From contig NZ_FXTP01000004.1 in NCBI RefSeq assembly GCF_900182705.1, positions 124,001 to 188,000 on the forward strand: DNA of 64,000 nucleotides, written 5' to 3'. Within the stretch, counting starts at the first letter, position 1; every line of letters starts with the position of its first letter. Below, piece after piece: positions 42,175 to 59,400 of this stretch. A program made the position numbers and the translations under genes. The notes beneath the pieces are model-generated. The model was not told the origin of the DNA and did no database searches. It worked only from the letters and a program-made list of their open reading frames with translations. The DNA comes from Gracilimonas mengyeensis. Its GTDB lineage: Bacteria; Bacteroidota; Rhodothermia; Balneolales; Balneolaceae.

Positions 42175-42382
42175 CCTTGGCACCAACACCTCTCACCATT
42201 CAAAAAGGAACAACTTTTTGAATGGATCTCTCCTCAAGGAGAGACTTTCTGGGGGATGTATTACAGATTAGAAACTTATGCATAGACCCCTGGGATTGAA
42301 TTCCACTTCGAATAAGTCCTTCCTTGAGGAAGGTGCCAGGTTTTGGCTGGCCAAAACACGCGGATGGTGTTCGTGCCAAAGG
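42175..42382. repeat. MITE-like element F, copy 1 (208 bp)
   Basis: The ends are near-perfect inverted repeats: CCTTGGCACCAACACC on the left and GGTGTTCGTGCCAAAGG on the right. Inside, in order: a private hairpin CCATTCAAAAAG/CTTTTTGAATGG (42196-42225), the constant hairpin CTCTCCTCAAGGAGAG, a spacer, the constant TCCTTCCTTGAGGAAGG, and another private hairpin GTTTTGG/CCAAAAC (42340-42357). No open frame of note. It ends 30 bases before the start of the CBM9/PKD gene. Confidence 0.75.
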
Positions 42383-42412
42383 CTATATTGCCATCTGCAA
42401 AAAAGAAAATCT

Positions 42413-43495
42413 ATGACACACAAACGAATTTTACCCATACTTCTGGTTCTGGCAGCCGTCCTGCAAACCACCTTGATGGCTCAAAGCCGGCCGGATACCA
42501 CCTTTAAAATTTTCCAATTTCCTGCCGATCAGATTCCACGGATTGATGGTGATGTTTCGGATTGGGATATGGTGCCCGCCAGCTATGAGATTGGCACCGA
42601 TCAATTGGTAGATGACAATGGGAATTACACGGAACCAGATTCCAGCACTCTGGCTGTAAAGGTAAAAGTGGGTTGGGTAGAAGGGATGAACCGACTGTAT
42701 TTTCTATATGAAGCCGAGGATGATTTTTGGCATTTCAATGAAACCGGCCTCAAAAACGATACCTATGAAATTGTAGTGGATGCCGATCTTTCCGGCGGAC
42801 CGCTCATCGATCGCTTTCACCCCAACACACGCATTGGCAAATGGGATGCCTACTTTTCCTTTCACGGCGTACATGCCCAGAACTATCACATTTTCACTCC
42901 GCCAGTAGACAAAGACTGGACGCTGGCGTGGGGGCCTCAGTCCTGGATTAAAGACTTACCCTACGCCAATGCGGCCTATGATTTCAATTTTGAGCACGGG
43001 GATTCCGGTAAACTGACCCTTGAATTCTGGATCACGCCCTTTGATTATGCCGGTGCCGAAGGACCAGGGCGCGCGGTGAAATCCAAACTGTATGAGAACA
43101 AACTCATTGGCTTAAGCTGGGCCGTGCTGGATTATGACGAAGGTGGTGGTCAGGATGGCTTTTGGAATCTCTCGGCCGAGCATACTATGTACGGGCAGGC
43201 ATCTGAGCTGGTGATGTTTCGCCTGATGACGATGGAGCCTGAATTCAAAGCACCGGTAGAAGCCGCATGGGATTTCAAAGTGATTGATATGGATCGGCGT
43301 ATGGTGGCCTTTCAAGATGAATCGGAGGGAGAGATTACCTCTTGGAATTGGGATTTTGGAGATGGTAATACATCCACAGAACAACATCCGATTCATCAAT
43401 ACGAGGAGCCCGGGTTGTATGTGGTAGTGCTGGAGGTAGAAGGACCTGAAGGCAAAGACCGGCTTTCGAAAGTATGGGACGTGGCGGTGCGCTAA
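42413..43495 (+). CDS. Secreted CBM9-like protein with C-terminal PKD domain
   Basis: About 360 residues from the ATG at 42413, which opens a proper signal peptide (ILPILLVLAAVLQTTLMAQ). A more upstream in-frame ATG at 42278 would place the repeat element inside the gene and is rejected. Residues about 35-260 resemble carbohydrate-binding family 9-type beta-sandwiches (PRIDGDVSDWDMVPASYEIG, LYFLYEAEDDFWHF, DTYEIVVDADLSGG, TLEFWITPFDY). Residues about 285-360 are a PKD domain with the hallmark SWNWDFGDGNTST and YEEPGLYVVVLEV. No catalytic motif is seen. It may hold glycan at the cell envelope or be an accessory to the enzymes encoded upstream. Confidence 0.7.
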   Translation: MTHKRILPILLVLAAVLQTTLMAQSRPDTTFKIFQFPADQIPRIDGDVSDWDMVPASYEIGTDQLVDDNGNYTEPDSSTLAVKVKVGWVEGMNRLYFLYEAEDDFWHFNETGLKNDTYEIVVDADLSGGPLIDRFHPNTRIGKWDAYFSFHGVHAQNYHIFTPPVDKDWTLAWGPQSWIKDLPYANAAYDFNFEHGDSGKLTLEFWITPFDYAGAEGPGRAVKSKLYENKLIGLSWAVLDYDEGGGQDGFWNLSAEHTMYGQASELVMFRLMTMEPEFKAPVEAAWDFKVIDMDRRMVAFQDESEGEITSWNWDFGDGNTSTEQHPIHQYEEPGLYVVVLEVEGPEGKDRLSKVWDVAVR

Positions 43496-43501
43496 GGATT
43501 T

Positions 43502-43775
43502 GAATATCGAACATTGAATATTCAACAATGAATTTTATCAAAGTACATCACGAAAATTATAAGTATCAACGTTAAACGAGGATTACCCATGGGGCCAACA
43601 CCTCTCCCGGCTAAAGCCGTACTCTCCTCAAGGAGAGACTTTTTCCGGGGAGGAATTACAGCTACGTTGCCTGCAAAAGTTTTTTAGATTGAATTCCATA
43701 TCAGTTAGTCCTTCCTTGAGGAAGGTGCCTTGGTTTTGACTTGTCAAAACCGGCGGAGGGTGTTCGTGCCAAAGG
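43502..43775. repeat. D repeat and MITE-like element F, copy 2
   Basis: The gap 43496-43852 begins with a D unit (GAATATCGAACATTGAATATTCAAC, 43502 onward) six bases after the stop. Element F follows at about 43591-43775: left end GGGGCCAACACC, right end GGGTGTTCGTGCCAAAGG, constant hairpin CTCTCCTCAAGGAGAG, constant TCCTTCCTTGAGGAAGG, and private hairpins CGGCT/AGCCG (43608-43619) and GTTTTGAC/GTCAAAAC (43733-43750). The right end lies 77 bases before rhaM, so the rhaM leader is mostly repeat DNA. Confidence 0.75.
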
Positions 43776-43852
43776 GCGGTTACTTATTACCTACCAAACT
43801 ATTACCATTTTATCATCATTGTAACAAATTTATCACTCCAAAAAGAAAACAC

Positions 43853-44167
43853 ATGTACCGCAACGCTTTTAAAATGAAACTTAAGTCCGGCTTTAAAGCA
43901 GAATACAAAAAACGCCATGATGAGATCTGGCCGGAGCTGGAAGAAGCCCTCACCGAAGCCGGCATCCATGATTATTCCATTTTTCTGGATGAAGAAACCA
44001 ACACGTTATTTGCCGTGCAGAAGCTGGAAGATGATTTCGATGGTGAGTCGCTACGGGAACTGCCAATCATGAAAAAATGGTGGGACTATATGAAAGACAT
44101 TATGGAAGTGAACCCCGACAACTCTCCAGTAGAAAAGTCTTTGGAAGAAGTGTTCCATATGGATTGA
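43853..44167 (+). CDS. rhaM: L-rhamnose mutarotase
   Basis: A 104-residue protein, the usual RhaM length. It interconverts alpha- and beta-L-rhamnose so that the isomerase receives its preferred anomer. The start at 43853 is chosen because the product then begins MYRNAFKMKLK, aligning with known RhaM starts; the longer in-frame start at 43730 would run into a repeat. Family landmarks are present: AEYKKRHDEIWPELEEAL with Tyr18 and His22 at the catalytic positions of the E. coli enzyme, the strand YSIFLDEETNTLFAV, the WW pair in MKKWWDYMKDIMEVNPDNSP, and EVFHMD at the end. It is the first gene of the rhamnose block. Confidence 0.95.
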   Translation: MYRNAFKMKLKSGFKAEYKKRHDEIWPELEEALTEAGIHDYSIFLDEETNTLFAVQKLEDDFDGESLRELPIMKKWWDYMKDIMEVNPDNSPVEKSLEEVFHMD

Positions 44168-44332
44168 CCTGTCCGGGAGGGATGCTTTAAATAGCTTGGC
44201 TAGCTATCACGCTTAAATGAACACCAACCGGCTGGTGTCCCGAACAATTCGGGGCGGTAGGCGGGGGAACATTGATAACTGGTAAACACATTGCCATCAT
44301 TTAATCTTAATAACAAAAGGATAAACAGCTGT

Positions 44333-46822
44333 ATGCATTCAACATGTTTTAGGAGCAGGATTAGATTACTACTCATCGTAATAGTTGCATTAATGGCATC
44401 CAATCTCAGCGCCCAGACCCCGATAGGTAACTTGCAGTCGCAGTTTGAACGGGATGGAAATACGGTCCTTTTTTCCGGAGAGAATGCAGACTTACAACTT
44501 GAATTTTATACCCCCTCCATGGTTCGGGTACAAACCAGTTGGGATCGATCTTTCGAGACCGTGGGTAAGGAATGGATGTTGGTAGATAACCACTGGCCGC
44601 AGGTAGATGTGAGTGTTGAAGAAGCTGGGGAGGAAGTCCGTTTTAAAACCGATGATTTAGTAGTTAGCGTGCAAAAAGAGCCCCTGAAACTAACATTTTT
44701 GACCCCGAGTGGGACAGTACTGAATACAGAAGAGATTTCCCAATCAAGTGGTGGGATGATGAAAAAAGGTGAAGCCGTCTGGGTTGAGAAAAAACTCCTG
44801 CCGGAAGAGCATTTCTTTGGTTTTGGAGAAAGGATGGATTTCGTGGATCAACGAGGTAAAAAAATTGAGCTGGATGTGGGACGCGGTACCGGACCTACGC
44901 ATACCGTTGGGGCATACAACATCCTGAAGGCCAACTATTCACCGGTTCCCTTCTTTATGAGTACAAGAGGCTACGGCATTTTCTTCCACACTCCCTACAC
45001 TACGCACTGGGATATGGGAAACAGCGATACAAATGTCTACTCTTTTAAAGCGGAGAACGGACAGATCGATTACTTCTTCATGTATGGTCCTGAATTTCCT
45101 GCCATACTCGATCAATACACGGATCTCACGGGAAAGTCGCCACTTGTACCCGAATTTACGCTGGGACTTAATGTGGGAACCTATAGCGGCGGAACCTGGG
45201 GTCATGAGGGAAATACTTCAGACGATTACGTGATTAACCTGGGCAGAAAGTTCAAAGAAAAAGGAATTCCAGCCGACGTACTGCATCTCGATTCCACCTG
45301 GCGCATATTCGGTCCTAACGGATATGGTTCAACCACCTTTGAGTGGCGCAATACCTTCAAAAACCCTGAAGCTATGTTCGACAGTCTATATGCCATGGAC
45401 TACAATATGGTAGGGGTGCACGTCCGTCCACGTTACGACAACGGAAACAAATATAACCTGCTTGACCAGGCCAGGGAAGCCGGAGTGGTATATCCCGAAC
45501 CCGGTGGCGGCGAATTTGTTAACGTTTTTGATTCTGTGGCCGTGGATTGGTGGTGGGAGCATGGCGCGCGAATCGTGATCGAGCAGGGGGCTATGTTTTT
45601 TAAAACGGATGAGGGCAGTGCCTTTGGAAATAAAGCCAATGAAAGCGACAAAACAGGTCCCACCGGCCCCGAAGCTAAGCGTCTGCATAACCTGTTTCCT
45701 CTTGCCTATACATCAGCTCCCTTTACGCGTTTCCAGGATGAAAACAACATGCGCGGCTTCAACCTCACGCGCGAAGGCTATGCAGGTATTCAACGCTACC
45801 CCTACATTTGGGCGGGAGACTGGTCCAGCGAGTGGCAGTATTTTGAACCTGTCATAAGGGCCGGGCTGAACATAGGGCTCTCAGGAGTTGGGTTCTGGTC
45901 GCATAACATGGGAGGATTTGAACACGTGCCAGACCCCGAGCTATATATCCGGTGGGTACAGTTTGGCATGTTCAGTCCTATCGCACACTTATTCGGTATG
46001 GATCATCCTGGCTACAAAGAACCCTGGAGTTATGGCGAGCAGGCAGAGCGCATCTTCAAAAAATATGACCGTATGCGTTACCGGATGATTCCATACATCT
46101 ATAGTGAAGCCTGGAAAATGCACAACACCGGGAAGCCGATTATGCGGGCCCTGGTGCTTGAATACCAAGACGACATCAATACCTATGATATCGATGACCA
46201 ATATATGTTTGGCGATAACCTGCTGGTGGCCCCGGTGACCACCAAAGGTGCCAAGACCCGAACCGTGTATCTGCCGGAGGGCACTTGGTATGATTACTGG
46301 AATGGCGAAAAATACAGCGGCAAGCAACATGTAGCGTATCTGACTCCGCTCGACAAACTGCCGATCTTTGTAAAAGCAGGAGGAATCATTCCGCAGCGCA
46401 ACCGCATCGAGAACCTGGGCGAACAGCCGGCCGATACGCTTAGCCTGGAAATTTTTCCGCATGGTCAATCTTCTTATGAAATCTATGATGATGACGGCAA
46501 AAGCAGGGAGTATGAGAGCGGGGAATATGCCATCACAACCGTAACGGTAGATGATCAATCCCTAAAAACAACTGTGAATATTCAAGCCCCTGAAGGCTCA
46601 TATCAGGTTCCGGAGCGTTCATATAAGCTGCTTATCCACACGAAGCAGGCTCCTGAATCGGTGCAAGAGGATTCTCGAGTATTGAGTAAAATATCCAATT
46701 TTGAAGTATTCCAAGAAGAATCGCAGGAAGACGGCTGGTATTTTGACGAAGAGTCAGGTAAGCTATTTGTCAGGCTTTCCGGTAGCAGTGCAGAGGATAT
46801 AAACGTCACTATTTCTAAATAA
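44333..46822 (+). CDS. GH31 family glycoside hydrolase (alpha-xylosidase/alpha-glucosidase-like)
   Basis: About 829 residues from the ATG at 44333, which directly opens a signal peptide (LLLIVIVALMASNLSAQ); an ATG 14 codons upstream is less likely. The GH31 N-terminal beta-sandwich is followed by the catalytic barrel: EEHFFGFGERMDFVDQRG, DVLHLDSTWRIFG, FFKTDEGSAFGN with the probable nucleophile Asp426, YIWAGDWSSEWQY with the probable acid/base Asp496, GLSGVGFWSHNMGGFEH, SPIAHLFGMDHPGYKEPW, then the C-terminal beta domains (FVKAGGIIPQRN). The nucleophile context KTDEG differs from the WxDMNE of plain alpha-glucosidases, so the exact sugar is open; alpha-xylose or alpha-galactose on pectin or hemicellulose side chains are options. 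It is flanked by rhaM and the permease. Confidence 0.9.
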   Translation: MHSTCFRSRIRLLLIVIVALMASNLSAQTPIGNLQSQFERDGNTVLFSGENADLQLEFYTPSMVRVQTSWDRSFETVGKEWMLVDNHWPQVDVSVEEAGEEVRFKTDDLVVSVQKEPLKLTFLTPSGTVLNTEEISQSSGGMMKKGEAVWVEKKLLPEEHFFGFGERMDFVDQRGKKIELDVGRGTGPTHTVGAYNILKANYSPVPFFMSTRGYGIFFHTPYTTHWDMGNSDTNVYSFKAENGQIDYFFMYGPEFPAILDQYTDLTGKSPLVPEFTLGLNVGTYSGGTWGHEGNTSDDYVINLGRKFKEKGIPADVLHLDSTWRIFGPNGYGSTTFEWRNTFKNPEAMFDSLYAMDYNMVGVHVRPRYDNGNKYNLLDQAREAGVVYPEPGGGEFVNVFDSVAVDWWWEHGARIVIEQGAMFFKTDEGSAFGNKANESDKTGPTGPEAKRLHNLFPLAYTSAPFTRFQDENNMRGFNLTREGYAGIQRYPYIWAGDWSSEWQYFEPVIRAGLNIGLSGVGFWSHNMGGFEHVPDPELYIRWVQFGMFSPIAHLFGMDHPGYKEPWSYGEQAERIFKKYDRMRYRMIPYIYSEAWKMHNTGKPIMRALVLEYQDDINTYDIDDQYMFGDNLLVAPVTTKGAKTRTVYLPEGTWYDYWNGEKYSGKQHVAYLTPLDKLPIFVKAGGIIPQRNRIENLGEQPADTLSLEIFPHGQSSYEIYDDDGKSREYESGEYAITTVTVDDQSLKTTVNIQAPEGSYQVPERSYKLLIHTKQAPESVQEDSRVLSKISNFEVFQEESQEDGWYFDEESGKLFVRLSGSSAEDINVTISK

Positions 46823-46865
46823 CCGTCAGTTCAATATTTGAATAGATATAGAATATGCTTTTTGG

Positions 46866-47170
46866 TCATTCCGCGGCGTACATGTCCCGACAAACTTGTC
46901 GGTGAGGCCCGGAATCTTATTGCTTGCCAGATATCAATAGTTGGATTCAACGCGACAGTTAGATCCCTGCTTTCGTAGGGATGACTTTACAAACTTCTAT
47001 TTATCTGTTTCACCTATTCTTATCTCGAAGGCAAGTTAAAAAATTAAACGGCTTAAAAGGTGCTACTACTAGTCATCTTTCATTTTATATACCTCTGAAC
47101 AGGCGAGCAGGAAGCAGCCCAGCCCGTAATCTTCAAAATCTGCAAGATTAGTATTATCCGTGTTCCACCC
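46866..47170. repeat. Degenerate intergenic repeats before the permease gene
   Basis: The gap 46823-47469 has no gene I can support. It contains GTCATTCCGCGG ... GGCCCGGAATC around a hairpin CCGACAA/TTGTCGG (46887-46902), a CCCT/AGGG hairpin leading to AGGGATGAC (about 46966-46984), and a decayed right half of module C (AAAATCTGCAAGATTAG ... ATCCGTGTTCC, about 47132-47167). The last 300 bases include the upstream motif at 47315. Confidence 0.5.
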
Positions 47171-47314
47171 ACTCGGGTTTTATAAAATAGGGCCAAAGCT
47201 GGAATTTTGGATGAAGAAAAAACGATGAACATTTCTATCAGTTCTCGCCCCCAAAACGGGTTCAAATTCTTTTCAGAAAAAAGTTATATCTGCATAGTAG
47301 ATTCCAATTTTGGC

Positions 47315-47331
47315 TGTCTCTTATGATGTAA
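47315..47331 (+). promoter_or_regulatory. TGTCTCTTATGAT motif upstream of the permease gene
   Basis: TGTCTCTTATGATGTAA lies 155 bases before the start at 47470. CTCTT and AAGAG (47328-47334 region) form a short dyad around TATGATGT. The first 13 bases equal those of the site at 38885 upstream of the PL22-like gene. Confidence 0.48.
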
Positions 47332-47469
47332 AGAGTCTTGTTTGGCAGAAAAAGCATCCTGACGTCTGGTTTAGGCCAAAGGGCTTTCTAATTTCCAATA
47401 AGAGCCATTGCTCTCACAGGCAGCTAAATAATCTAAAGAAACCGAAGGGTTTCGTTCAAATTATGTTGT

Positions 47470-48876
47470 ATGAATAATATTCTCCAGCGGTTAGACGCCC
47501 GCCTCAAAAACATTGATGAATATGAACGGCGACCAGTGCCGGATGATAAACGTAAAGGCTGGAAAGGTTTTATAGGGATGTATGCCGGAGAGCATACTGC
47601 AGGCACCGAGTTTGTGATTGGTCCTTTATTTGTAGCACATGGTGTGGCTACAGGTGAATTAATTTGGGGACTTATTCTGGGTAATATCCTGGCCGTATTA
47701 AGCTGGGCTTTTTTATGTGCTCCCGTAGCCGTGAAGACCAAGCTTACCCTGTACTGGCAAATGAAGAAAATTTGCGGCTCAAAGCTGGCTTTGATTTATA
47801 ATGTGGTAAATGCATTGATGTTTTGCTTTTTAGCCGGTGCCATGATAGCGGTAGCTGCTACGGCCATTGGCTTGCCTTTTGGTATACCCATGCCTGAATT
47901 GGGAGATTGGATGCCAACAAGTATCGGCTGGATTATTACGGTTTTTCTGGTTGGATTGGTGATTACCGTAGTGGCTATTTTAGGTTACGATTACGTGGCT
48001 TGGTTTGCCAACGTTGCTTTCCCTTGGATGCTGTTGGTATTTATTGCTGCCGCACTGGCTACCCTTCCTCAATTGGGAGTAACTTCCATTTCTGATTTTT
48101 GGACGGTGGCCCAGGAAAAAATTTGGACAGGGGTTCCGGCAGAAGGACAAAGTAAATTTACTTTTTGGCACGTAATGTTTTTTGCCTGGTTTGCCAACAT
48201 GGCTATGCACATCGGGATGGCGGATATGTCCATCTTACGATTTGCTAAAAAATGGCAGCATGGTTTTGCCTCAGGCACAGGAATGTTTTTTGGCCATTTT
48301 ATAGCCTGGATGGCTTCAGGTATTTTGACAGCTGCAGCCGCTGGCGCCATTGCGCCTGGTATCATTGCTTATAATGGCGCAGGTGTGGCTGGTGCCATCT
48401 GTGTGGTTATTGCGGGATGGACTACTGCCAACCCCACTATATATCGTGCAGGACTCGCTTTTCAATCGGTAACCCCTAACTGGAAACGCTGGAAGGTTAC
48501 CCTGTTCACCGGTATGGTTACTTCCATTGCCGCTTGTTTCCCTGCCCTGGTAATGCAATTACTCGATTTTGTGGCCCTCTATGGTTTGGTGCTGATGCCA
48601 ATGGGCGCGGTTATTTTCCTGGATGTCATGGTTTTTCAAAAAATGAACCTGCAAAGCAATCTTGCCGAAAAAATTGGTCTCAGTTTCAACTGGACAGCCG
48701 GCCTGACCTGGGGCATTACGCTACTGCTCTGCCTCTTTATCAATCTCTATATCGGTATTGAAATCTTTTTCCTTGGATTACCGGGTTGGTTTATTGCAGC
48801 ACTGCTTTACATCGGGCTGAGCCTCCTGTACCAAAAGAAAATCATGAAGGCCAAACCGGCACAAGCAACGGCATAG
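47470..48876 (+). CDS. NCS1-type permease, candidate rhamnose-pathway transporter
   Basis: A 468-residue inner-membrane protein with about 12 hydrophobic segments. The start of the membrane part (WKGFIGMYAGEHTAGTEF, then GELIWGLILGNILAVLSW) and the internal IIAYNGAGVAGAICVVIAGWTTANPTIYRAG resemble the purine/cytosine permease (NCS1) family, sodium- or proton-coupled carriers normally of nucleobases. Nothing in the neighbourhood concerns nucleobases: rhaM and GH31 lie upstream and the rhamnulose aldolase, isomerase and kinase downstream. Uptake of L-rhamnose or an RG-derived product is therefore inferred. No other candidate sugar transporter for the inner membrane is present in the window. Confidence 0.68.
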   Translation: MNNILQRLDARLKNIDEYERRPVPDDKRKGWKGFIGMYAGEHTAGTEFVIGPLFVAHGVATGELIWGLILGNILAVLSWAFLCAPVAVKTKLTLYWQMKKICGSKLALIYNVVNALMFCFLAGAMIAVAATAIGLPFGIPMPELGDWMPTSIGWIITVFLVGLVITVVAILGYDYVAWFANVAFPWMLLVFIAAALATLPQLGVTSISDFWTVAQEKIWTGVPAEGQSKFTFWHVMFFAWFANMAMHIGMADMSILRFAKKWQHGFASGTGMFFGHFIAWMASGILTAAAAGAIAPGIIAYNGAGVAGAICVVIAGWTTANPTIYRAGLAFQSVTPNWKRWKVTLFTGMVTSIAACFPALVMQLLDFVALYGLVLMPMGAVIFLDVMVFQKMNLQSNLAEKIGLSFNWTAGLTWGITLLLCLFINLYIGIEIFFLGLPGWFIAALLYIGLSLLYQKKIMKAKPAQATA

Positions 48877-48957
48877 AAAATTATTCAATATAGAATCTAC
48901 TTGAGCAACAAGAGTACTATCAACGTAAAATTATAAAGTAACGACGAAGACAAGACG

Positions 48958-51156: not shown

Positions 51157-51180
51157 CACTTAATCAACGATCTCCCGGCT

Positions 51181-51351
51181 ATGCGAATACTGCTTATTAT
51201 CATATCAATTATTGGATTGATGCTGACCATCATTCCATCTATACTGGTATTCACCCAGAATATGACACTGGAAACCCATAAACAGTTAATGGCAACCGGG
51301 ATGATCCTCTGGTTTGGAACCGCCGTGTTTTGGATTGAAGGCCAGGATTAA
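51181..51351 (+). CDS. 56-residue two-helix membrane protein in the rhamnose operon
   Basis: A short gene lying 24 bases after the aldolase stop: MRILLIIISIIGLMLTIIPS, a loop with QNMTLETHKQ, then a second hydrophobic segment (LMATGMILWFGTAVFW) ending IEGQD. CCGGCT before the ATG offers no strong ribosome site, but the spacing to rhaEW suggests coupling. The pattern of two membrane helices with a short polar loop (THK) and a W-rich second helix looks like a conserved small protein rather than chance. Function unknown; it may assist the permease. A perfect hairpin repeat follows directly after it. Confidence 0.6.
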   Translation: MRILLIIISIIGLMLTIIPSILVFTQNMTLETHKQLMATGMILWFGTAVFWIEGQD

Positions 51352-51363
51352 CAGCACTATCCA

Positions 51364-51396
51364 AGACCTGTCAGGTTTTAGAAACCTGACAGGTCT
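51364..51396. repeat. Perfect 15-bp hairpin AGACCTGTCAGGTTT
   Basis: AGACCTGTCAGGTTT (51364-51378) pairs without mismatch with 51382-51396 around a 3-base loop. The arms are the kind of dispersed palindrome seen in many Bacteroidota genomes. It is followed by CTAAAAAAGG rather than a T run on the plus strand, so termination of the plus-strand operon is uncertain. Confidence 0.8.
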
Positions 51397-51524
51397 ATTC
51401 CTAAAAAAGGCAATTCGTTCGTAGATTTATTATCTGCGAAATCAGCATTTTAACTCTGTTTCTACATTGGCGGGACGAGAAATCCATGCTGACTTAATTG
51501 CACAAAAAGATTTAGTACACCCTT

Positions 51525-52808
51525 ATGAATATCACATCTTCACACATTGAAGAGCACAACAAAACAGTTAAAGATGATCACCAGGAAAGCCTGGACGCCT
51601 TGGCTCATCAGCTTAATAAACGAAATATCGACATAAATGAACTGGTGGAGCAGGCCGGAGCCTTTCAGGTGGCTATTCCCAGCTGGGCATTAGGTGCCGG
51701 CGGTACGCGTTTTGGACGGTTTGCCATGGGCGGCGAGCCCCGCAGCCTGGAAGAGAAAATTGAGGATGTGGGCTTGTTGCATGCCCTGAATCATTCAAGT
51801 GGCGCCATTTCACTGCATATTCCCTGGGATATCCCCGAAGATACCGCTGCCGTGAAAGAGCTGGCGGACAAGCATAATTTAGTTTTTGATGCCGTAAACT
51901 CGAATACCTTTCAGGACCAGGAAGATCAGGAGCATTCCTACAAATACGGCTCGCTTTCTCACACTAAAGAAGAAGTCCGTGAGCAGGCCATTGAACATAA
52001 TATTGAAGTGATAAAATACGGGAAGGCACTTGGCTCCAAAGCACTGACGGTGTGGCTGGCCGATGGCTCCAATTTTCCCGGACAACAGAATTTCGGGAAG
52101 GCGCTTAGAAACACTGAAGAATCCCTGCACAAAATTTATGACGCACTGCCCGACGACTGGCAGGTGCTGATTGAATACAAACCCTACGAGCCCAATTTCT
52201 ATTCCATGGTAATTCCCGATTGGGGCACCTCTTTTCTGCTGGCGAATAAGCTGGGTGATCAGGCTAAGACCCTGGTGGATTTAGGGCATCATCTTCCTAA
52301 TACCAACATTGAGCAAATTGTAGCTATTCTGCTGATGGAGGGTAAACTGGGCGGATTCCATTTTAACGATTCTAAGTACGGGGATGATGATTTGACGGCT
52401 GGCTCTCTGAAGCCTTACCAGTTATTCTTGATTTTCAATGAGTTGATTGAAGGCACCGATGGTCCTGAAGAACTCCGCAACCAGATAGCCTGGATGATTG
52501 ACGCCAGCCATAATGTGAAAGATCCGCTGGAAGATTTACTCCAATCAGTTGAGGCTATTCAACAGGCATATGTAAAAGCATTGTTGATTGACCGGGATAA
52601 ATTAAAGGACGTGCGGGAAGAAAATGATCCTGCCGGAGCACAGGAAGTGTTGCAGGATGCTTTCCAAACCGATGTGCGTCCACTGCTGACGGAAGCACGA
52701 GTACGTCATCAGGCGGCGGCCGACCCCATACAGCTATACCGAGCGCTGGGCGTTCGTAAACAATTGATTGAGGAACGAGGGGCTGATAGCGTGGCTACCG
52801 GCCTGTAA
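51525..52808 (+). CDS. rhaI: L-rhamnose isomerase (RhaI type)
   Basis: A 427-residue xylose-isomerase-like barrel of the RhaI group found in Gram-positive bacteria and Bacteroidota rather than the E. coli RhaA type. It converts L-rhamnose to L-rhamnulose with a divalent metal. Landmarks: VAIPSWALGAGGTRFGRFAMGGEPR near the N-terminus, SGAISLHIPWDIP, SKALTVWLADGSNFPGQ, VLIEYKPYEPNFY with a metal-binding Glu, TLVDLGHHLPNTNIEQIVA with metal-binding Asp and His, GGFHFNDSKYGDDDL with His and Asp ligands, and DASHNVKDPLEDL. It follows the small membrane protein after 173 bases and is 25 bases ahead of rhaB. Confidence 0.95.
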   Translation: MNITSSHIEEHNKTVKDDHQESLDALAHQLNKRNIDINELVEQAGAFQVAIPSWALGAGGTRFGRFAMGGEPRSLEEKIEDVGLLHALNHSSGAISLHIPWDIPEDTAAVKELADKHNLVFDAVNSNTFQDQEDQEHSYKYGSLSHTKEEVREQAIEHNIEVIKYGKALGSKALTVWLADGSNFPGQQNFGKALRNTEESLHKIYDALPDDWQVLIEYKPYEPNFYSMVIPDWGTSFLLANKLGDQAKTLVDLGHHLPNTNIEQIVAILLMEGKLGGFHFNDSKYGDDDLTAGSLKPYQLFLIFNELIEGTDGPEELRNQIAWMIDASHNVKDPLEDLLQSVEAIQQAYVKALLIDRDKLKDVREENDPAGAQEVLQDAFQTDVRPLLTEARVRHQAAADPIQLYRALGVRKQLIEERGADSVATGL

Positions 52809-52833
52809 TCATCCCGAAAAAAGAAGAATAACC

Positions 52834-54282
52834 ATGACCACCCCAAAATCCGTAACCGCCGTTTTCGATATTGGGAAAACCAATAAGAAGTTTTTCCTGT
52901 TTGACGAGCAGTACGGCGTAGTGCGGAAAACGCAGGTGAAGCTGAAGCAGACCACCGACGACGATGGCGACCCCTGTGAGGATTTGCCGGCCCTGGAGCG
53001 CTGGATCAAAGAAAATATCCGTGAGGTGCAGGAGGATGAATCGGTGGATGTGCAGGCGCTGAATTTTTCGACCTACGGTGCCAGTCTGGTACATTTGGAT
53101 GAAGAAGGGAAGACCGTAACGCCCTTATATAATTATCTGAAACCCTTTCCCGAAGACTTGTTAAATCAGTTTTATAGCAGCTACAAAGGCCGGGAAGGGC
53201 TGTCGCTGGAAACGGCTTCCCCGCCTATGGGAATGCTGAATTCGGGCCTGCAGCTGTATTGGCTGAAATACGGGAAGCCGGAAGTGTTTAAAAAGATTCG
53301 GAAGAGCCTGCACTTTCCTCAGTATTTGAGTTATGTGATGACGGGGCTGCAAACTTCAGAGCTAACAAGTATCGGCTGCCATACGGCTATGTGGAATTTT
53401 GAGCAGGATGATTATCACGCCTGGATGAAGCAGGAAGATTTATTGGAATTACTGCCCGGTATTGAGCCTGTTACGGCCACTTTTCCTGTCCCATGGAAAG
53501 ATAAAACCTTGGAAACCGGGGTGGGTATACATGACAGCTCGGCCGCACTGGCTCCCTATTTATTTGCCCTGGATGAACCTTTTATGCTGGTTTCAACGGG
53601 TACGTGGAGTATCACCTTCAACCCATTTAATAAACAACCGCTTACCTTTGATGAGCTGCAGCGCGATTGTCTCTGCTACCTGGATGTATATGGCAACCAA
53701 GTGAAGGCGGCCCGTTTTTTTCTGGGAAATGAATATAGTGTACAAAAAGAAAGGCTGATGCAACATTTCGATATTCCGGAAGATGCAGAACCGGTTGATT
53801 TAGACCCGAAGCTGATGAAAGAAATTATCCAAAAAGATAACCCGGCGCTTAAGCTGAAATTACATACAGCCTATAATTCCGGGCCTTATCCTCAGAATAA
53901 ACCCGGCGAATGGGATATCACCCAGTTTGATTCGTACCAGGAAGCCTACCATCAGTTAATGCTGGATTTAGCATCCATTCAGGCAGAGTCTATTAAGCTG
54001 GCCGGTGGAGACGTTTCAGCCAATAAGCTGGTGATAACCGGAGGGTTCAGTCAAAACGAATTTTTTATTCGTCTGCTGGCTTGTTTTTTCCCGGAAAAAG
54101 AGATTTATACTTCGAGTTTACCGAATGCCTCAGCCCTTGGCGCGGCTATGGTGGTAAATGATGACAGCAGGCTGAAGCATGACAAAGAAGCTGCCAATCG
54201 TTTACTTGGATTGAAGAAGCACGAAGCTTGTAAAGCTACAGAAGCCGGCGGTTACCGCTGGAAAGAATCGGTGTTGAGTTGA
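52834..54282 (+). CDS. rhaB: L-rhamnulokinase (FGGY family)
   Basis: About 482 residues from the ATG at 52834, which gives the canonical start TAVFDIGKTNKKFFLFDEQ (phosphate-1 motif of the actin/FGGY fold). An in-frame start at 52768 would overlap the end of rhaI and is rejected. Further family segments: FSTYGASLVHLDEEG, ETASPPMGMLNSGLQLYWL, SIGCHTAMWNF, GVGIHDSSAALAPYL with the probable catalytic Asp, FMLVSTGTWSITFNP and LVITGGFSQNEFFIRLLA. It phosphorylates L-rhamnulose at O1. The substrate is assigned from context between rhaI and the rhamnulose-phosphate aldolase; sequence alone says FGGY sugar kinase. Confidence 0.92.
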   Translation: MTTPKSVTAVFDIGKTNKKFFLFDEQYGVVRKTQVKLKQTTDDDGDPCEDLPALERWIKENIREVQEDESVDVQALNFSTYGASLVHLDEEGKTVTPLYNYLKPFPEDLLNQFYSSYKGREGLSLETASPPMGMLNSGLQLYWLKYGKPEVFKKIRKSLHFPQYLSYVMTGLQTSELTSIGCHTAMWNFEQDDYHAWMKQEDLLELLPGIEPVTATFPVPWKDKTLETGVGIHDSSAALAPYLFALDEPFMLVSTGTWSITFNPFNKQPLTFDELQRDCLCYLDVYGNQVKAARFFLGNEYSVQKERLMQHFDIPEDAEPVDLDPKLMKEIIQKDNPALKLKLHTAYNSGPYPQNKPGEWDITQFDSYQEAYHQLMLDLASIQAESIKLAGGDVSANKLVITGGFSQNEFFIRLLACFFPEKEIYTSSLPNASALGAAMVVNDDSRLKHDKEAANRLLGLKKHEACKATEAGGYRWKESVLS

Positions 54283-54318
54283 TGATGGCAGGCCGTTGGG
54301 TTGATTGGAAGTGATTTG

Positions 54319-54524
54319 CCTTCGGCACCAACACCTCTCACAAACAATGTGGGAACAGCCACATTGTTTGATCTCTCCTCAAGGAGAGACTTTCTGTGCT
54401 TGAATTATGACTGTGATAATTACAAAAAAACATGGAGATAGAAATCCGCTTCGAAAAGTCCTCCCTTGAGGGAGGTGCCGGGTTTTGATTTATCAAAACA
54501 CGCGGAGGGTGTTCGTGCCAAGGG
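54319..54524. repeat. MITE-like element F, copy 3 (206 bp)
   Basis: It begins CCTTCGGCACCAACACC and ends GGGTGTTCGTGCCAAGGG. It carries the same constant blocks as copies 1 and 2 (CTCTCCTCAAGGAGAG and TCCTCCCTTGAGGGAGG) but private hairpins: CAAACAATGTGG/CCACATTGTTTG (54341-54370, 12 of 12 paired) and GTTTTGAT/ATCAAAAC (54482-54499). It sits in the 596-base gap between rhaB and lutA. Confidence 0.78.
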
Positions 54525-54576
54525 CTAAAAATGTTGAACACAAATAGAAGCCGTGAAGATGTATCTTTGGCATATT

Positions 54577-54720
54577 GCCAGCCCAACCTCCGAATGGACA
54601 TTACGCCTTTGGTTGTAATGGTGCGGAGGTTTCTAAGCCAGGGCACGCATGTTTCCACGGACCAAAGTCCGTGGCTACACTCGGTCGTCCCAGTGGGACT
54701 ATTGATAGTAACTCTGTAGT
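54577..54720. repeat. Other repeats between rhaB and lutA
   Basis: Downstream of element F, GCCCAACCTCCGAATGG ... GTGCGGAGGTTTC (54579-54634) is module B in reversed orientation, and CCACGGACcaaaGTCCGTGG (54656-54675) followed by TCCCAGTGGGA are further palindromes. Several overlapping short open frames cross this stretch, but none has a ribosome site or protein-like sequence. An AGTCTCTTAAA sequence at 54850, near the lutA start, weakly resembles the upstream motif seen at other genes. Confidence 0.55.
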
Positions 54721-54878
54721 CCTACTTACGTCTCCTTTGTTGGCTCCCTTGGATGTTAGGGAAGAAACAAGAAAGAGTTTTAGCAACAATGGCTTTTTGA
54801 TTTCCCATAGCATCCAGACCTTGCCTTCAATAACAGGCACCTATAAAACAGTCTCTTAAATTCATTATAAAATCTACC

Positions 54879-55616
54879 ATGCGCATTTCGCTGTTCATCA
54901 CTTGCTTTAACGATACGCTGTTCCCTGAAACGGGCAAAGCCATGGTTCGTTTGCTGGAGCGGTTAGGACATACCGTTGATTTCCCTTTCGAACAAACCTG
55001 CTGCGGACAGATGCATTACAATACCGGATACCAGGAAGAGGCCATTCCGCTGGTACGCAAGTTTATCGATGTTTTTGGAGATGCGGAGTATATCGTGGCG
55101 CCGTCTGCTTCTTGTGTGGCTATGATTCACGAGTTTTACCCCAAAGTGGCCGAACGTTCCGGTGATGCACAACTGGCAAAAGAAGTAGAAGAAATCATCC
55201 CAAAAGTATATGAGCTGTCGCAGTTTTTGGTGGATGAGCTGGGTATTGAAGATGTGGGAGCCTATTATCCCCACAAAGTAACTTTTCACCCCACCTGCCA
55301 TTCTATTCGGATGCTGCATGTAGGGGATGCACCGCTGAAATTATTGAGAAAAGTGAAGGGACTGGAACTGGAAGAATTGCCCGGCGCATTAGAATGCTGC
55401 GGCTTTGGAGGAACTTTTGCCGTGAAAAATGCCGATACCTCCATGGCTATGCTCAGCGATAAAATGAAGAATATCGAAAGTACGGGAGCCAAAGCCTGTA
55501 CGTCTATTGATAATTCGTGTCTGATGCACATCGGAGGAGGGTTATCACGCAAAGGAAGTGATACCAAGGCGGTTCACCTGGCGGAAATTTTGGCTTCAAC
55601 GGAGGAGAACCAATGA
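54879..55616 (+). CDS. lutA: Lactate utilization protein LutA (Fe-S oxidoreductase subunit)
   Basis: A 245-residue protein with two CCG domains: TCCGQMHYNTGYQEEA (about residues 40-56) and ECCGFGGTFAVKN (about 170-183), which bind an iron-sulfur cluster or join subunits in heterodisulfide-reductase-like enzymes. SLFITCFNDTLFPETGKA at the start and HPTCHSIR are typical of LutA/YkgE. With LutB and LutC it oxidises L-lactate to pyruvate, passing electrons to the respiratory chain. Its TGA overlaps the lutB start (ATGA), so the two are translationally coupled. Placement right after the rhamnose genes fits, because the rhamnose pathway here ends in L-lactate. Confidence 0.95.
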   Translation: MRISLFITCFNDTLFPETGKAMVRLLERLGHTVDFPFEQTCCGQMHYNTGYQEEAIPLVRKFIDVFGDAEYIVAPSASCVAMIHEFYPKVAERSGDAQLAKEVEEIIPKVYELSQFLVDELGIEDVGAYYPHKVTFHPTCHSIRMLHVGDAPLKLLRKVKGLELEELPGALECCGFGGTFAVKNADTSMAMLSDKMKNIESTGAKACTSIDNSCLMHIGGGLSRKGSDTKAVHLAEILASTEENQ

Positions 55617-57040
55617 GCAGGCAAACACCCACTTTTCAGGAAACGGCCGATGCCTATCTAAACAACACGCAACTGCGGGAAAACCTGGGCCACGCGACCC
55701 ATACCATCCGGGATAAACGTGCTGATATTGTGGGAGAGATGCCCGATTGGGAGCATCTCCGGGAAGCCGGCAACAAGCTGAAAAAGCGCGTAATGCGTCA
55801 TCTGGATTCATACCTGTTACAGCTTGAGGCATCCGTACAGGAAGCGGGTGGACACGTACACTGGGCACGGGATGCGGAAGAAGCCAATGATATTATTACC
55901 GGACTGGTAAAACAGCAGCAGGTGGATGAAGTGGTGAAGGTAAAATCCATTACCACCGATGAAATCAAACTGAATGAAGCCCTGAAAAAAGAAGGCATAC
56001 AGGCGCTGGAAACGGATTTGGCGGAGCTGATTGTACAGCTGGCTGAGGATGAGCCTTCGCATATACTGGTGCCGGCCATCCACAAAAACCGGAAAGAGAT
56101 CCGGGATTTATTTCGGGAGAAATTAAATAACAAGGAATTGACTGATCGCCCCGAGGATTTGGCAGAGGCGGCCCGTTTATATCTCAGGAAGAAGTTTTTG
56201 AGTGCAAAGGTGGGCATCAGCGGCGCGAATTTTGGCGTGGCGGATACCGGAACCATTGCCGTGGTGGAATCGGAGGGCAACGGCCGGATGTGTACCACGC
56301 TACCTGAAACATTGATTACGGTGATGGGCATCGAAAAACTCATCCCTACCTGGCAGGATTTTGAAGTATTCATGCAGCTGCTGCCTCGTTCATCTACTGC
56401 CGAGCGTATGAATCCGTACAACTCCTTTTGGACGGGCGTTACGCCGGGCGATGGTCCCCAGGAGTTTCACTTGGTGCTGTTGGATAATGGCCGAACCAAC
56501 GTATTGGCCGATGAAGTGGGAAGGCAGACGTTGAATTGCATCCGCTGCAGTGCGTGCCTGAATGTATGTCCCGTGTACGAACGTACCGGCGGACATGCCT
56601 ATCACTCCGTATATCCCGGGCCCATAGGCGCCATTTTAACGCCGCAACTCAAAGGCATTGAAGATGACGGAGCAGCTTCGCTTCCGTATGCTTCGAGTTT
56701 ATGTGGAGCATGCTATGAAGTCTGTCCGGTTAAGATTGATATCCCCAAAGTGCTGGTGCACCTGCGGGGCAAAATTGTGGACGAGAAGAAACGTAATGGT
56801 TCGTTAAAAGCTAAACTGGACCCGGAGCATGTGGGATTGAAATTGATGGCCCAGGCATTTAAGAATTCAAAAAGGTATGAACGGGCGCAGAAGCTGGCTC
56901 AAACAGGGCAAAATATTTTTGTCAAAGATGGAAAGATCTCCAGTTTGCCGGGCTATCTGTCTGGCTGGAGCGCCATGCGGGATCTGAAGCCCATCCCCAA
57001 AGAAACATTCCGTGAATGGTGGAGGAACCGCAATGAGTAA
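55613..57040 (+). CDS. lutB: Lactate utilization protein LutB (Fe-S protein)
   Basis: A 475-residue protein. The N-terminal LUD domain (about 60-300) contains VGISGANFGVADTGTIAVVESEGN. The ferredoxin-like part has CIRCSACLNVCPVYERTGGHAYHSVYPGP (about 310-340) and CGACYEVCPVKIDIPKVLVHLR (about 363-384), i.e. two CxxCxxCxxxCP-type cluster sites. The C-terminal tail (LSGWSAMRDLKPIPKETFREWW) is typical of LutB/YkgF. It carries electrons in the LutABC lactate oxidase complex. Its start overlaps lutA by four bases and its stop overlaps lutC by eight, showing a tight operon. Confidence 0.96.
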   Translation: MSRQTPTFQETADAYLNNTQLRENLGHATHTIRDKRADIVGEMPDWEHLREAGNKLKKRVMRHLDSYLLQLEASVQEAGGHVHWARDAEEANDIITGLVKQQQVDEVVKVKSITTDEIKLNEALKKEGIQALETDLAELIVQLAEDEPSHILVPAIHKNRKEIRDLFREKLNNKELTDRPEDLAEAARLYLRKKFLSAKVGISGANFGVADTGTIAVVESEGNGRMCTTLPETLITVMGIEKLIPTWQDFEVFMQLLPRSSTAERMNPYNSFWTGVTPGDGPQEFHLVLLDNGRTNVLADEVGRQTLNCIRCSACLNVCPVYERTGGHAYHSVYPGPIGAILTPQLKGIEDDGAASLPYASSLCGACYEVCPVKIDIPKVLVHLRGKIVDEKKRNGSLKAKLDPEHVGLKLMAQAFKNSKRYERAQKLAQTGQNIFVKDGKISSLPGYLSGWSAMRDLKPIPKETFREWWRNRNE

Positions 57041-57692
57041 AGCCAAAGATGAAATACTGCACCGCATACAATCAGCCCTGAAAGAGGTGCCTGCGGATGA
57101 AAAACGGGAAGATGTTGCAGTGAACCGTGAGTACATCCAAAAAGGAAATCTGAGTGGTGAAGAGCTGGTAACACTTTTTGTAGAACGCTCCGGCGAATAC
57201 CAGGCAACTGTGAAACGGATCAAGAAAGAAGAGCTAAAAGATGAAATTAGCAAAGCCTGTGATCGCCATAAGGCTATAAAAATGGTAATTCCTGCCGGTT
57301 TTAAAACCGATTGGTTACCGGATCTGCTGGAGCCACAGTTTGATGATTCCGGTGCACCTCTATCTCACGACGAACTAGATCAACTGGACGGAGTAATCTC
57401 TACCTGTGCGCTGGCTGTGGCCCAAACCGGAACCATTATTCTGGATGCCGGGGCGGGACAAGGCAGACGCGTACTTTCCCTGCTGCCCGATTATCATTTA
57501 TGCATTGTTCGGGAAGATCAGATAGTGGAAACCGTTCCTGAAGGCTTTGCCGGGGTATCGGATCAAGTAAAAAAAGAAGGTCGGCCGATTACGTTTATTT
57601 CCGGTCCGTCTGCTACTTCTGATATCGAGCTCAACCGTGTGGAGGGTGTGCACGGCCCGCGCAAGTTGGATATTTTAGTGGTAGGTGGGTGA
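57033..57692 (+). CDS. lutC: Lactate utilization protein LutC (LUD domain)
   Basis: A 219-residue protein from the ATG at 57033, chosen because GGAGG at 57020-57024 is well placed and because the longer frame from 57012 begins inside the lutB tail without need. The LUD domain carries LAVAQTGTIILDAGAGQGRRVLSLLPDYHLCIV, GPSATSDIELNRVEGVHGPRKLDILVV, typical of LutC/YkgG. It is the third subunit for L-lactate oxidation. A D-type repeat (ACATGGAACACCGAATAAC ... AATGTTGAAG) starts at the stop codon. No regulator of the LutR/GntR type is seen next to the operon. Confidence 0.95.
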   Translation: MSKAKDEILHRIQSALKEVPADEKREDVAVNREYIQKGNLSGEELVTLFVERSGEYQATVKRIKKEELKDEISKACDRHKAIKMVIPAGFKTDWLPDLLEPQFDDSGAPLSHDELDQLDGVISTCALAVAQTGTIILDAGAGQGRRVLSLLPDYHLCIVREDQIVETVPEGFAGVSDQVKKEGRPITFISGPSATSDIELNRVEGVHGPRKLDILVVGG

Positions 57693-57826
57693 ACATGGAA
57701 CACCGAATAACAAACATTGAATAAGGAATGTTGAAGCAATCCTGTCAATCCTTTTAATCTTGGTTCAAACTGTTGTAGTAAGTAAAAGGGAGAGATAATA
57801 AGGCTCATCGTTTGAATCCACCATCG

Positions 57827-58010
57827 CACATCCCCCTGTAAATTTCTAAAGAAATTTCCGGTCCCTCTTCAAAGAGGGAATTATCTATTTACCAGCCTAA
57901 TATTCAGTTATTTATATCTGAGTTATTCTTTATTCCATGCGTATTAACTGATAATTCTCCCTTTGAAGGGAGACCGGTTCAGACCTTCAGGTCTGAAGCA
58001 GGGGGATGTG
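57827..58010. repeat. MITE-like element G (184 bp, perfect 12-bp terminal inverted repeats)
   Basis: CACATCCCCCTG (57827-57838) and CAGGGGGATGTG (57999-58010) are exact inverted repeats. Inside is a nested mirror: hairpin AAATTTC/GAAATTT (57840-57857), hairpin TCCCTCTTcaaaGAGGGA, an AT-rich middle, hairpin TCTCCCTttgaAGGGAGA, hairpin TTCAGACC/GGTCTGAA (57978-57997). The architecture is that of element F with different sequences. It fills most of the 455-base gap between lutC and the PL10-like gene; no gene is seen there. Confidence 0.8.
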
Positions 58011-58147
58011 AGATGCTCGAAATGGGAAAAGATGCTTGAATCGAAGAGCATTAAGTATTTTCAACTTCGCTAACCACATTCGCATTTTTCAATGGGCAGG
58101 ATTACATTGCAATTCGGAAAGGAATTGAAATCAGTTAGTTGGAGAAA

Positions 58148-59275
58148 ATGAACTTTATGACTTATCAGTATACCTGCCTGATACTTTTAACTTTTCTTGT
58201 CGGATGTTCAAATCATGCAGATCCTGATAAAGAGATCCCGATCAGCCTGGATAAGTTTGCTGACGGGATCCATCACTATGAACTGTTTGCCGAAGAGTTA
58301 GATTATCCGCGGCTGGATACCAGCAATTACCGGGGCATTGCCGACAACCTGGTGACTTTTCAAAATGAAGACGGCGGCTGGCCCAAGAACATCGATTGGC
58401 TGGCGGATGTGGATATGGATTCTCTGAAGAACACCCTAAGCCCGCGTGATGTCCAAAGCACCTTCGACAACGACAACACCCATCCTCAAATAGATTTTCT
58501 GGCGAGGATGTACTCTCGTACTGGAAATGAGAAATACAGGGAAAGTGCAGAAGAAGGACTCCGATATATCCTGGAAACCCAAAACCCAAGCGGAGGCTGG
58601 CGTGGCTGGGATGTGGATGCCATCACTTTTAATGATAATGTGATGACCGGCATCATGGAAGTGCTGCTGGATGTGAAAACAGGAAAATCCTATTACGAAT
58701 GGGTGGAACCGGAATTAAGGCGGGAGCTAAATCAGGCTTTTGATGAAGCTTTAGATGTGACGCTACGTTGTCAGATTGAAGTGAATGGCGTAAAAAAAGC
58801 ATGGGGACAGCAGCACGATCATCAAACGCTGGAGCCGGTGCAGGGGCGTACCTATGAATTTCCGGCGGTGGTTTCGAGGGAATCGGTAGGCGTTGTGGAA
58901 TTCCTGATGCAGATTAATAACCCCGATGAACGGATCGTTGAAGCCGTTGATGCCGCAGTAAGCTGGATGAGAAGGTCCGGTCTGGAAAATATCCGCATCG
59001 ATACCATTCATATTTCCCCGGATACCTATCCCGGTCAAAATCTGGATGTGGACCGAAAGGTAACCATAGATTCTTCGGCATCTACCATTTGGGCTCGTTA
59101 TTATGAAGTGGAGGGCAATACTCCTTTTTTCGCCACCCGGTCTGGTGAAAAAGTATATTCCCTGGCCGAAGTCAATCCGGAACGCCGGGGCGGTTACGCC
59201 TGGTACGGCTACTGGCCGGCGGAGCTGATTGAAGAAAAGTATCCGGCCTGGAAAAAGAGGGAGGGACTGAAATAG
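58148..59275 (+). CDS. PL10-like pectate lyase, lipoprotein (2)
   Basis: About 375 residues; the start may be 58148 or 58157, both just after GGAGAAA, while a TTG at 58139 is less likely. A lipoprotein signal (YTCLILLTFLVGC) is followed by the PL10 toroid: IADNLVTFQNEDGGWPKNIDW (about 45-65), STFDNDNTHPQIDFLARMY, GLRYILETQNPSGGWRGWDVDAITFNDNVMTGIMEVL, KAWGQQHDHQTLEPVQGRTYEFPAVVSRESVGVVEFLM and GGYAWYGYWPAELIEE. These match classical PL10 more closely than the copy at 36938. It should cut polygalacturonate in the periplasm or at a membrane face. It is the last pectin gene on the plus strand and is separated from lutABC by element G. Confidence 0.9.
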   Translation: MNFMTYQYTCLILLTFLVGCSNHADPDKEIPISLDKFADGIHHYELFAEELDYPRLDTSNYRGIADNLVTFQNEDGGWPKNIDWLADVDMDSLKNTLSPRDVQSTFDNDNTHPQIDFLARMYSRTGNEKYRESAEEGLRYILETQNPSGGWRGWDVDAITFNDNVMTGIMEVLLDVKTGKSYYEWVEPELRRELNQAFDEALDVTLRCQIEVNGVKKAWGQQHDHQTLEPVQGRTYEFPAVVSRESVGVVEFLMQINNPDERIVEAVDAAVSWMRRSGLENIRIDTIHISPDTYPGQNLDVDRKVTIDSSASTIWARYYEVEGNTPFFATRSGEKVYSLAEVNPERRGGYAWYGYWPAELIEEKYPAWKKREGLK

Positions 59276-59350
59276 CTATTTTTGTTCATGCGGTTCTTGA
59301 ATAAGGTTTAGTAAGAGGAAAATATAGTGATTCTATAATCAGAGTGACTG

Positions 59351-59400
59351 CCCTCCCTGAAAATTCAACAGGTTGAATTTTCTGTCCCTCCATGAGGGAC
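59351..59400. repeat. Half-copy of the F/G hairpin scaffold
   Basis: CCCTCCCT, then a private hairpin GAAAATTCAAC/GTTGAATTTTC (59359-59382, 11 of 11 paired), then GTCCCTC-cat-GAGGGAC (59384-59400). This is the left half of the same scaffold as elements F and G, alone, in the 247-base gap between the convergent PL10-like and glycosylase genes. It could also work as a terminator for both. Confidence 0.65.

Follow-up and report, generated by a model that had tools for sequence, protein, structure and literature searches.

The stretch of Gracilimonas mengyeensis DNA that was analysed (64,000 nucleotides, contig NZ_FXTP01000004.1 of assembly GCF_900182705.1, positions 124,001 to 188,000 of the forward strand, in the following "the window") holds four full copies and one half copy of short, hairpin-bearing elements, and these are probably, with a rough probability of 0.7, non-autonomous copies, similar to miniature inverted-repeat transposable elements (MITEs), of a mobile element family whose sole gene encodes a nuclease of the DUF559 family. 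A sequence-only reading of the window had described the plan of the elements, with shared ends, constant hairpins and variable but paired hairpins at fixed places, and this plan was borne out for all five, with the named sequences found at their places when the coordinates were rechecked. In the window the constant hairpin is much commoner than expected by chance, as CTCCTCAAGGAGAG with at most two mismatches has six matches (three sites, each on both strands) against 0.32 expected and 0 of 100 shuffles, and the end GGTGTTCGTGCC with at most one mismatch has five matches against 0.15 expected. The features are listed here with their positions in the window; RF01762 is the Rfam family of the whalefall-1 RNA, which some of the halves match, and R1 is our own covariance model, built from 28 halves of two genomes.

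42179-42377, + strand: element 1, full, 199 bp, two inverted halves with the ends GGCACCAACACC / GGTGTTCGTGCC
42196-42225: variable left hairpin of element 1, CCATTCAAAAAG-GAACAA-CTTTTTGAATGG
42227-42244: constant left hairpin of element 1, TCTCTCCTCAAGGAGAGA
42318-42333: constant right hairpin of element 1, CCTTCCTTGAGGAAGG
42340-42357: variable right hairpin of element 1, GTTTTGGC-TG-GCCAAAAC
42187-42247, - strand: whalefall-1-like left half of element 1, RF01762 30.1 bits, E 2.1e-4; R1 22.9 bits
43591-43770, + strand: element 2, full, 180 bp
43608-43619: short left hairpin of element 2, CGGCT-AA-AGCCG
43732-43751: right hairpin of element 2, GGTTTTGAC-TT-GTCAAAACC
43599-43641, - strand: left half of element 2, RF01762 17.4 bits, E 2.7; no R1 match at E 0.01
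54324-54519, + strand: element 3, full, 196 bp
54341-54370: left hairpin of element 3, CAAACAATGTGG-GAACAG-CCACATTGTTTG
54482-54499: right hairpin of element 3, GTTTTGAT-TT-ATCAAAAC
54332-54392, - strand: left half of element 3, RF01762 26.9 bits
57827-58010, + strand: element 4, full, 184 bp, second family with the ends CACATCCCCCTG / CAGGGGGATGTG
57840-57857 and 57978-57997: variable hairpins of element 4
57831-57879, - strand, and 57956-58006, + strand: halves of element 4, RF01762 29.5 and 27.4 bits
59350-59402, - strand: half element, third family, whalefall-1-like, with the variable hairpin GAAAATTCAAC...GTTGAATTTTC, RF01762 36 bits, E 2.7e-6; R1 35.2 bits

Like MITEs, the elements are short and non-coding, have inverted ends in the form of inverted halves, and occur in multiple dispersed copies: the constant hairpin pattern is found with up to two mismatches at 43 places of the 4.67-Mb genome, with 0 for a reversed-pattern control, and a gapped exact pattern finds 32 left halves genome-wide, 22 with a long and 10 with a short hairpin. 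Across the genome, many copies consist of one half only or contain additional hairpins nested within them. At four loci of this genome (L019, L030, L006, L028) and at one of G040 (L093), other palindromes are nested within hairpins of the elements, either as a ATCCCGAATG...CGGGA hairpin in place of a left arm or as an additional palindrome inside the loop of a constant hairpin. Terminator-like sites number 24 in the region, with 19.6 in shuffles; three of the 24 are the constant hairpins of elements 2, 3 and 4, and the constant hairpins may thus have a side role as terminators.

The gene-bearing partner with the same ends that belongs to a MITE is found in the DUF559 genes that lie between such ends. 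In this genome all seven DUF559 genes (seven Pfam matches above the cut-off) are placed between direct repeats, as read by eye and by BLAST, and four of them (L125-L128) have repeats assigned to families seen in the window: around L125 it is the family of elements 1-3, around L126 and L127 the 184-bp family of element 4, and at L128, a truncated DUF559 gene, the adjoining family resembles by eye the half at 59350, with one side carrying a partial copy. In the 57 Balneolaceae genomes there are 151 DUF559 matches, and 77 loci, the seven of this genome included, were examined. Among the 75 that have enough flank, 50 show direct and 31 show inverted flanking repeats, in comparison to 0 of 20 and 0 of 20 random windows that came from 6 genomes and were unmatched for gene size or intergenic position (p 2e-8). 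Perfect hairpins of at least 8 pairs are held by 28 of the 42 direct repeats of at least 50 bp, with 0.5 expected from shuffles. A further set of 66 named loci, at least one of which (L220) overlaps the first set, has direct or inverted flanking repeats in 50 of 59 testable cases, and R1 recognises 22 halves in this set, 16 of them within 150 bp of DUF559, at loci that include Scalindua, KSB1, Calditrichia and Draconibacterium, with 0 halves in 20 random windows. DUF559 genes thus often have ends with hairpins, among which the whalefall form makes up one branch. A literature search of open-licence PMC papers found no description of DUF559 genes with such ends.

The smallest nuclease-bearing unit (L074) can be written as H > DUF559 < H, where H is a half and the variable hairpins are directed toward the gene, and other loci have the form E-DUF559-E, where E is an element of 180-200 bp like those in the window. 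In the half, the constant hairpin is followed by the variable hairpin, which often has a CTTG loop in G040 and G031, and then by a conserved purine-rich tail. Loci that resemble each other in their ends also resemble each other in their nucleases, across genera as well. Pairs of loci with similar flanks have a nuclease identity of 0.625 in comparison to 0.488 when labels are shuffled within genomes (0 of 2000 shuffles), and since orthologous sites alone might account for this first result, the test was run again with the pairs sorted by kinship. Among the 62 pairs from different genera the identity is 0.593, in comparison to 0.467 when labels are shuffled within genomes (reached by 0 of 2000), and in pairs from the same genome (n=8) the observed identity is reached by 12 of 2000 shuffles. 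At one locus of Draconibacterium sediminis (L282, 2797-3766), the DUF559 gene has one half before it and three more after it, spaced 182 bp apart, which form a tandem array of ends. DUF559 domains also occur within very long open frames of 994-1484 residues (G044:C112:28784, G027:C2:1171966 (L147) and G031:C2:310346); at L147, BLAST found no flanking repeats, and the domain there has perhaps a host role.

The protein of L074 belongs to DUF559 (PF04480, 105.9 bits), and a structure model from 24 aligned proteins has a mean predicted local distance difference test score (pLDDT) of 90.3. The closest solved folds are those of a Neisseria endonuclease-like protein (Z 15.6), the catalytic domain of I-Bth0305I (Z 12.2) and Vsr (Z 10.4), followed by parts of the mitochondrial ribosome (up to Z 9.9), Holliday junction resolvases (7.5) and TnsA (6.7). 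The residues E28, D56, H73 and D82 are invariant in all 24 aligned proteins. By its modelled fold the DUF559 protein is a nuclease of the Vsr/EDxHD type, for which DNA cutting is predicted, and a DUF559 gene has already been placed in the EDxHD homing family in one study (PMC9403480). FASTKD4, a protein that is likened to Vsr, binds RNA according to PMC11879112, and RNA is therefore also possible as a partner of DUF559.

The presence and absence of such elements can be compared between related genomes. Nine sister genomes of the same genus have no DNA homologue of 43850-46822 except for one 50-base match in G004, and as no orthologous sites were thus available in the own genus, a pair from another genus was used, the congeneric species G040 and G031, whose shared sites are 71-82% identical. 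A 6.6-kb stretch of G031 (L103) has three elements that are absent at the collinear sites of G040 (L289), and one element of G040 is absent in G031. A unit of element, nuclease and element is common to both genomes, where its flanks are not shared (L158/L104). The presence/absence polymorphism that characterises a MITE is thus found for the G040/G031 family.

The variable arms are private to each copy and nevertheless matched, and the sequence-only reading had put this down either to selection on structure or to some process by which the two arms are rewritten jointly. Instead of a handful of fixed arm sequences, the genome has 22 distinct sequences for its 22 long left hairpins, and a second, short type, CCGGCTAAAGCCGT, is present in 10 left halves, nine of them identical and one a variant. 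The left arms had been called unrelated yet paired, and only the pairing stands. The 16 long left halves of equal length in this genome align as variants of one type with a variable stem of 12 pairs, ten of which change two-sidedly; 98.4% of cells are paired, and the covariation score is 0.393 in comparison to 0.118 in shuffles (0 of 500). In the same 16 halves, the adjoining constant stem of 7 pairs has a single broken cell and nowhere a change on both sides, and in G040/G031 the constant stem changes in pairs as well (3 of 9 pairs).

How the arms change in the short term can be seen from the two copies that bracket one nuclease gene. The input consisted of the 77 loci from Balneolaceae together with 20 named loci (out of 66) that were selected for their direct repeats; the filters retained 41 loci with 74 hairpins, with 45 pairs that are unpaired in copy 1 and 4 gapped pairs set aside. 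A comparison of such copies gives 58 stem pairs altered in one arm only, 15 altered in both arms and still paired, 2 altered in both arms in another way, and 563 unaltered. Since arms do mutate singly, a process that always rewrites both arms does not fit; the paired changes nevertheless exceed those of a mis-partnered control, where 8 of 570 were double changes and not all of these would form pairs. Independent mutation of the arms with loss of pairing is thus seen over short times only.

The kind of mismatch is informative, too. On the strand that matches whalefall-1 there are 22 G-U and 3 A-C pairs beside 22 others and 1249 Watson-Crick pairs when one neutral rule is used throughout. A looser mixed set with loose stem ends had given 11 G-U against 18 A-C, and as this excess of A-C stemmed largely from stems that had run into the flanks, all sets were redone under this one stricter rule. 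Looser counts were 27 to 4 on G040/G031, 3 to 0 in the own right halves, and 9 to 3 in the own left halves, where three G-U came from a spurious row that was later dropped. The prevalence of G-U over A-C on one strand seems to indicate, from base counts, that a folded single strand is kept, but it could also be explained by a strand-biased C-to-T mutation process.

Orthologous hairpins show a second way of change. Twelve hairpins from six element pairs of G040 and G031 were compared, with both flanks matching in L088/L117 and L090/L110 and the other four pairs anchored on one flank and the element, or partly; the pair L094/L116 was left out because L116 ends before the element. Three hairpins are identical or changed only in the loop, and four have changed stepwise, one of them by two fully paired changes and three one-sidedly. 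Two have switched between two recurring hairpin types, one has turned into a different, shorter hairpin, in one (L090/L110) the change affects five of the seven inner pairs, four of these in both arms, next to a nearly unchanged constant stem, and one has been replaced by an unrelated hairpin. These last five suggest the hairpin replacement that the sequence-only reading had considered, with separate insertions at one site as the other possibility, and as both hairpins of the two type switches recur in G040/G031, this suggests an exchange between copies. In genomes of about 90% identity (G056, G035, G025), two orthologous hairpins are nearly unchanged or decaying.

It could be argued that template switching or quasipalindrome correction during replication rewrites the arms jointly, so that selection would be unneeded. 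The perfect pairing in many copies, double changes of the transversion type such as UA to AU, the hairpins nested within hairpins and the case of L090/L110 would all agree with this, but the ratio of 58 one-sided to 15 paired changes and the prevalence of G-U on one strand do not, and such a process is improbable as the explanation. Traces of both proposed causes are present: joint rewriting in the replacement of whole hairpins at orthologous sites, selection on structure, which weighs more, in the paired changes above the control and in the G-U counts. This suggests that the long-term pairing of the arms is due to selection on a folded strand of the mobile element.

The window has nine halves, and RF01762 matches six of them, five at E 3e-6 to 2.2e-3 and one only at E 2.7; one extra weak row on the opposite strand of element 1 is regarded as an echo of the palindrome. 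Elsewhere in this genome copies reach 51.6 bits, with a cut-off of 37. Whalefall-1 matches at E 0.01 or better occur in 31 of 57 Balneolaceae genomes and in 0 of 14 control genomes, and high-scoring loci consist of two halves that enclose a 132-residue gene, which is DUF559. Counted by genus, 12 have both DUF559 and whalefall-1, 8 have neither, 1 has whalefall-1 only and 0 have DUF559 only (p 4e-5). In PMC2864571, whalefall-1 is described as "certainly" an RNA that is not cis-regulatory and known only from whalefall samples. The halves could accordingly be structured RNAs of the host, noncoding RNAs or leaders whose structure is conserved and whose spread is incidental, and apart from that published rating, the G-U prevalence on one strand and the CTTG loop (CUUG in RNA) fit an RNA. 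Such an RNA of the host is unlikely, though somewhat less so than the template switching discussed above, as the halves form inverted pairs, some genomes have dozens of matches (43 in the own genome, 63 in G040, which is a one-contig genome), the elements are present or absent at collinear sites and the nuclease gene lies between halves; also, a host RNA is not expected to vary with a linked nuclease. It is possible that an RNA is made by the mobile element itself. A comparable case may exist at 54655-54700 (+ strand) of the window, where a REP-like palindrome, CCACGGACCAAAGTCCGTGG (REP, repetitive extragenic palindrome), weakly matches Acido-Lenti-1 of Rfam (28.6 bits, cut-off 37), and this other catalogued "RNA" may be a mobile palindrome, too.

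Several observations weigh against the elements being gene-less relatives of a DUF559 mobile element. The RF01762 scores of the window halves (17.4-36 bits) are all below the gathering score of 37, and the right halves of elements 1-3 have no RF01762 match. R1 recognises a half in only 17 of the 72 Balneolaceae DUF559 loci searched, with flanking repeats of other kinds at the rest, and at only 14 of the 66 named loci; 25 of the 75 Balneolaceae loci have no direct repeat, and 9 of the 59 testable named loci have neither kind. In the own genome, the repeats that flank L122-L124 are other families not of the whalefall form, and the link of L125 to elements 1-3 is based on reading by eye and a 71-bp repeat. 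One genus, g12 (G020, G034), has 17 and 5 whalefall-1 matches and no DUF559 match at E 1e-6, and these copies may be orphaned elements or have another partner. Fifteen of the 22 G-U pairs come from the two related genomes G040 and G031, whose related copies are not independent. Finally, mobility is inferred from presence and absence in the sequences, with cut, excision and insertion not observed, and the empty G040/G031 sites are too diverged for target-site duplications to be read. That the majority of DUF559 ends have a form other than whalefall is offset by the cross-genus agreement of flanks and nucleases, so that the probability of a DUF559-borne element family stays the same.

For the elements as copies of a DUF559-borne family, a mechanism can be envisaged. 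The nuclease would read the constant parts by their sequence and the variable hairpin by its shape, and recognition would take place on the folded whalefall strand of each end, as single-stranded DNA or as RNA. The cut of the folded end would then start movement or copying. If only pairing is required in the variable hairpin, its arms would be free to drift, with changes in one arm or compensating changes in both, whole hairpins would now and then be swapped with those of other copies by conversion or re-insertion, and drift and exchange together would result in arms that are private but matched. A wider reading, tentative and at somewhat less than even odds, is that DUF559 is the core enzyme of an unrecognised class of mobile elements in Bacteroidota, Calditrichota, Planctomycetota and others, that this enzyme would recognise the ends of its element in folded, single-stranded form (as DNA or as an RNA that the element makes), with the variable hairpin read by shape, and that whalefall-1 would be the end of one branch of these elements.

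New here are the match of the window halves to RF01762 and the finding that such repeats bracket DUF559 genes. DUF559, which has been named as a family of unknown function, thereby gains a candidate substrate, its own flanking ends, and a candidate role in element mobility, and a catalogued "certain" RNA would be recast as part of a mobile element. This also calls for caution in covariation-based RNA discovery, as the same signal is left when the structure of mobile DNA, or of an element-made RNA, is under selection. The private but matched arms can then be read as the product of hairpin exchange and of drift that is free so long as the shape is kept.

A mobilisation by a Y1 HUH transposase, as in the REP/RAYT systems (RAYT, REP-associated tyrosine transposase; REPtrons) or in IS200/IS605, would be another conceivable origin of the hairpins, in view of the similar plan of palindromes that border a gene and of dispersed copies, as outlined in PMC8266576, and of five Y1_Tnp genes in the genome. 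The gene that is bracketed by a window-type element is DUF559, however, and this origin is very improbable. A Y1 transposase as the partner was rejected, as at 0 of the 5 own Y1_Tnp loci (L067-L071) an element was seen by eye in the 1.5-kb flanks, which contain other palindromes. The element stands outside the REPtron family because no Y1 gene of this genome carries these ends.

With bacterial MITEs the elements share the short length, the lack of a gene, the inverted ends, the many copies and the gene-bearing partner with the same ends, but this partner is not a known transposase, and a portion of the end is kept for its structure and not for its sequence. The attC sites of integrons were considered as an analogy only. 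Like the whalefall-1 RNA (RF01762), which the half-elements match, they have two hairpins, but here this unit is half of an inverted-pair DNA element and is found with a nuclease gene. The nuclease has the fold of the EDxHD homing endonucleases (I-Bth0305I) and of Vsr, as reflected in the Z scores of 12.2 and 10.4, but unlike those, the DUF559 gene lies between repeated hairpin-bearing ends and its protein is barely larger than the catalytic domain. In plan the elements resemble REPtrons and REPINs (tnpA_REP with REP palindromes), for which PMC8266576 describes a palindrome-bordered gene, gene-less dispersed copies and strand-specific folded ends. DUF559 with its Vsr/EDxHD fold here takes the place of the Y1 HUH enzyme, and each half has two hairpins, one constant and one free in sequence. 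By analogy, the DUF559 element would work in the manner of a REPtron whose nuclease and ends are of another kind.

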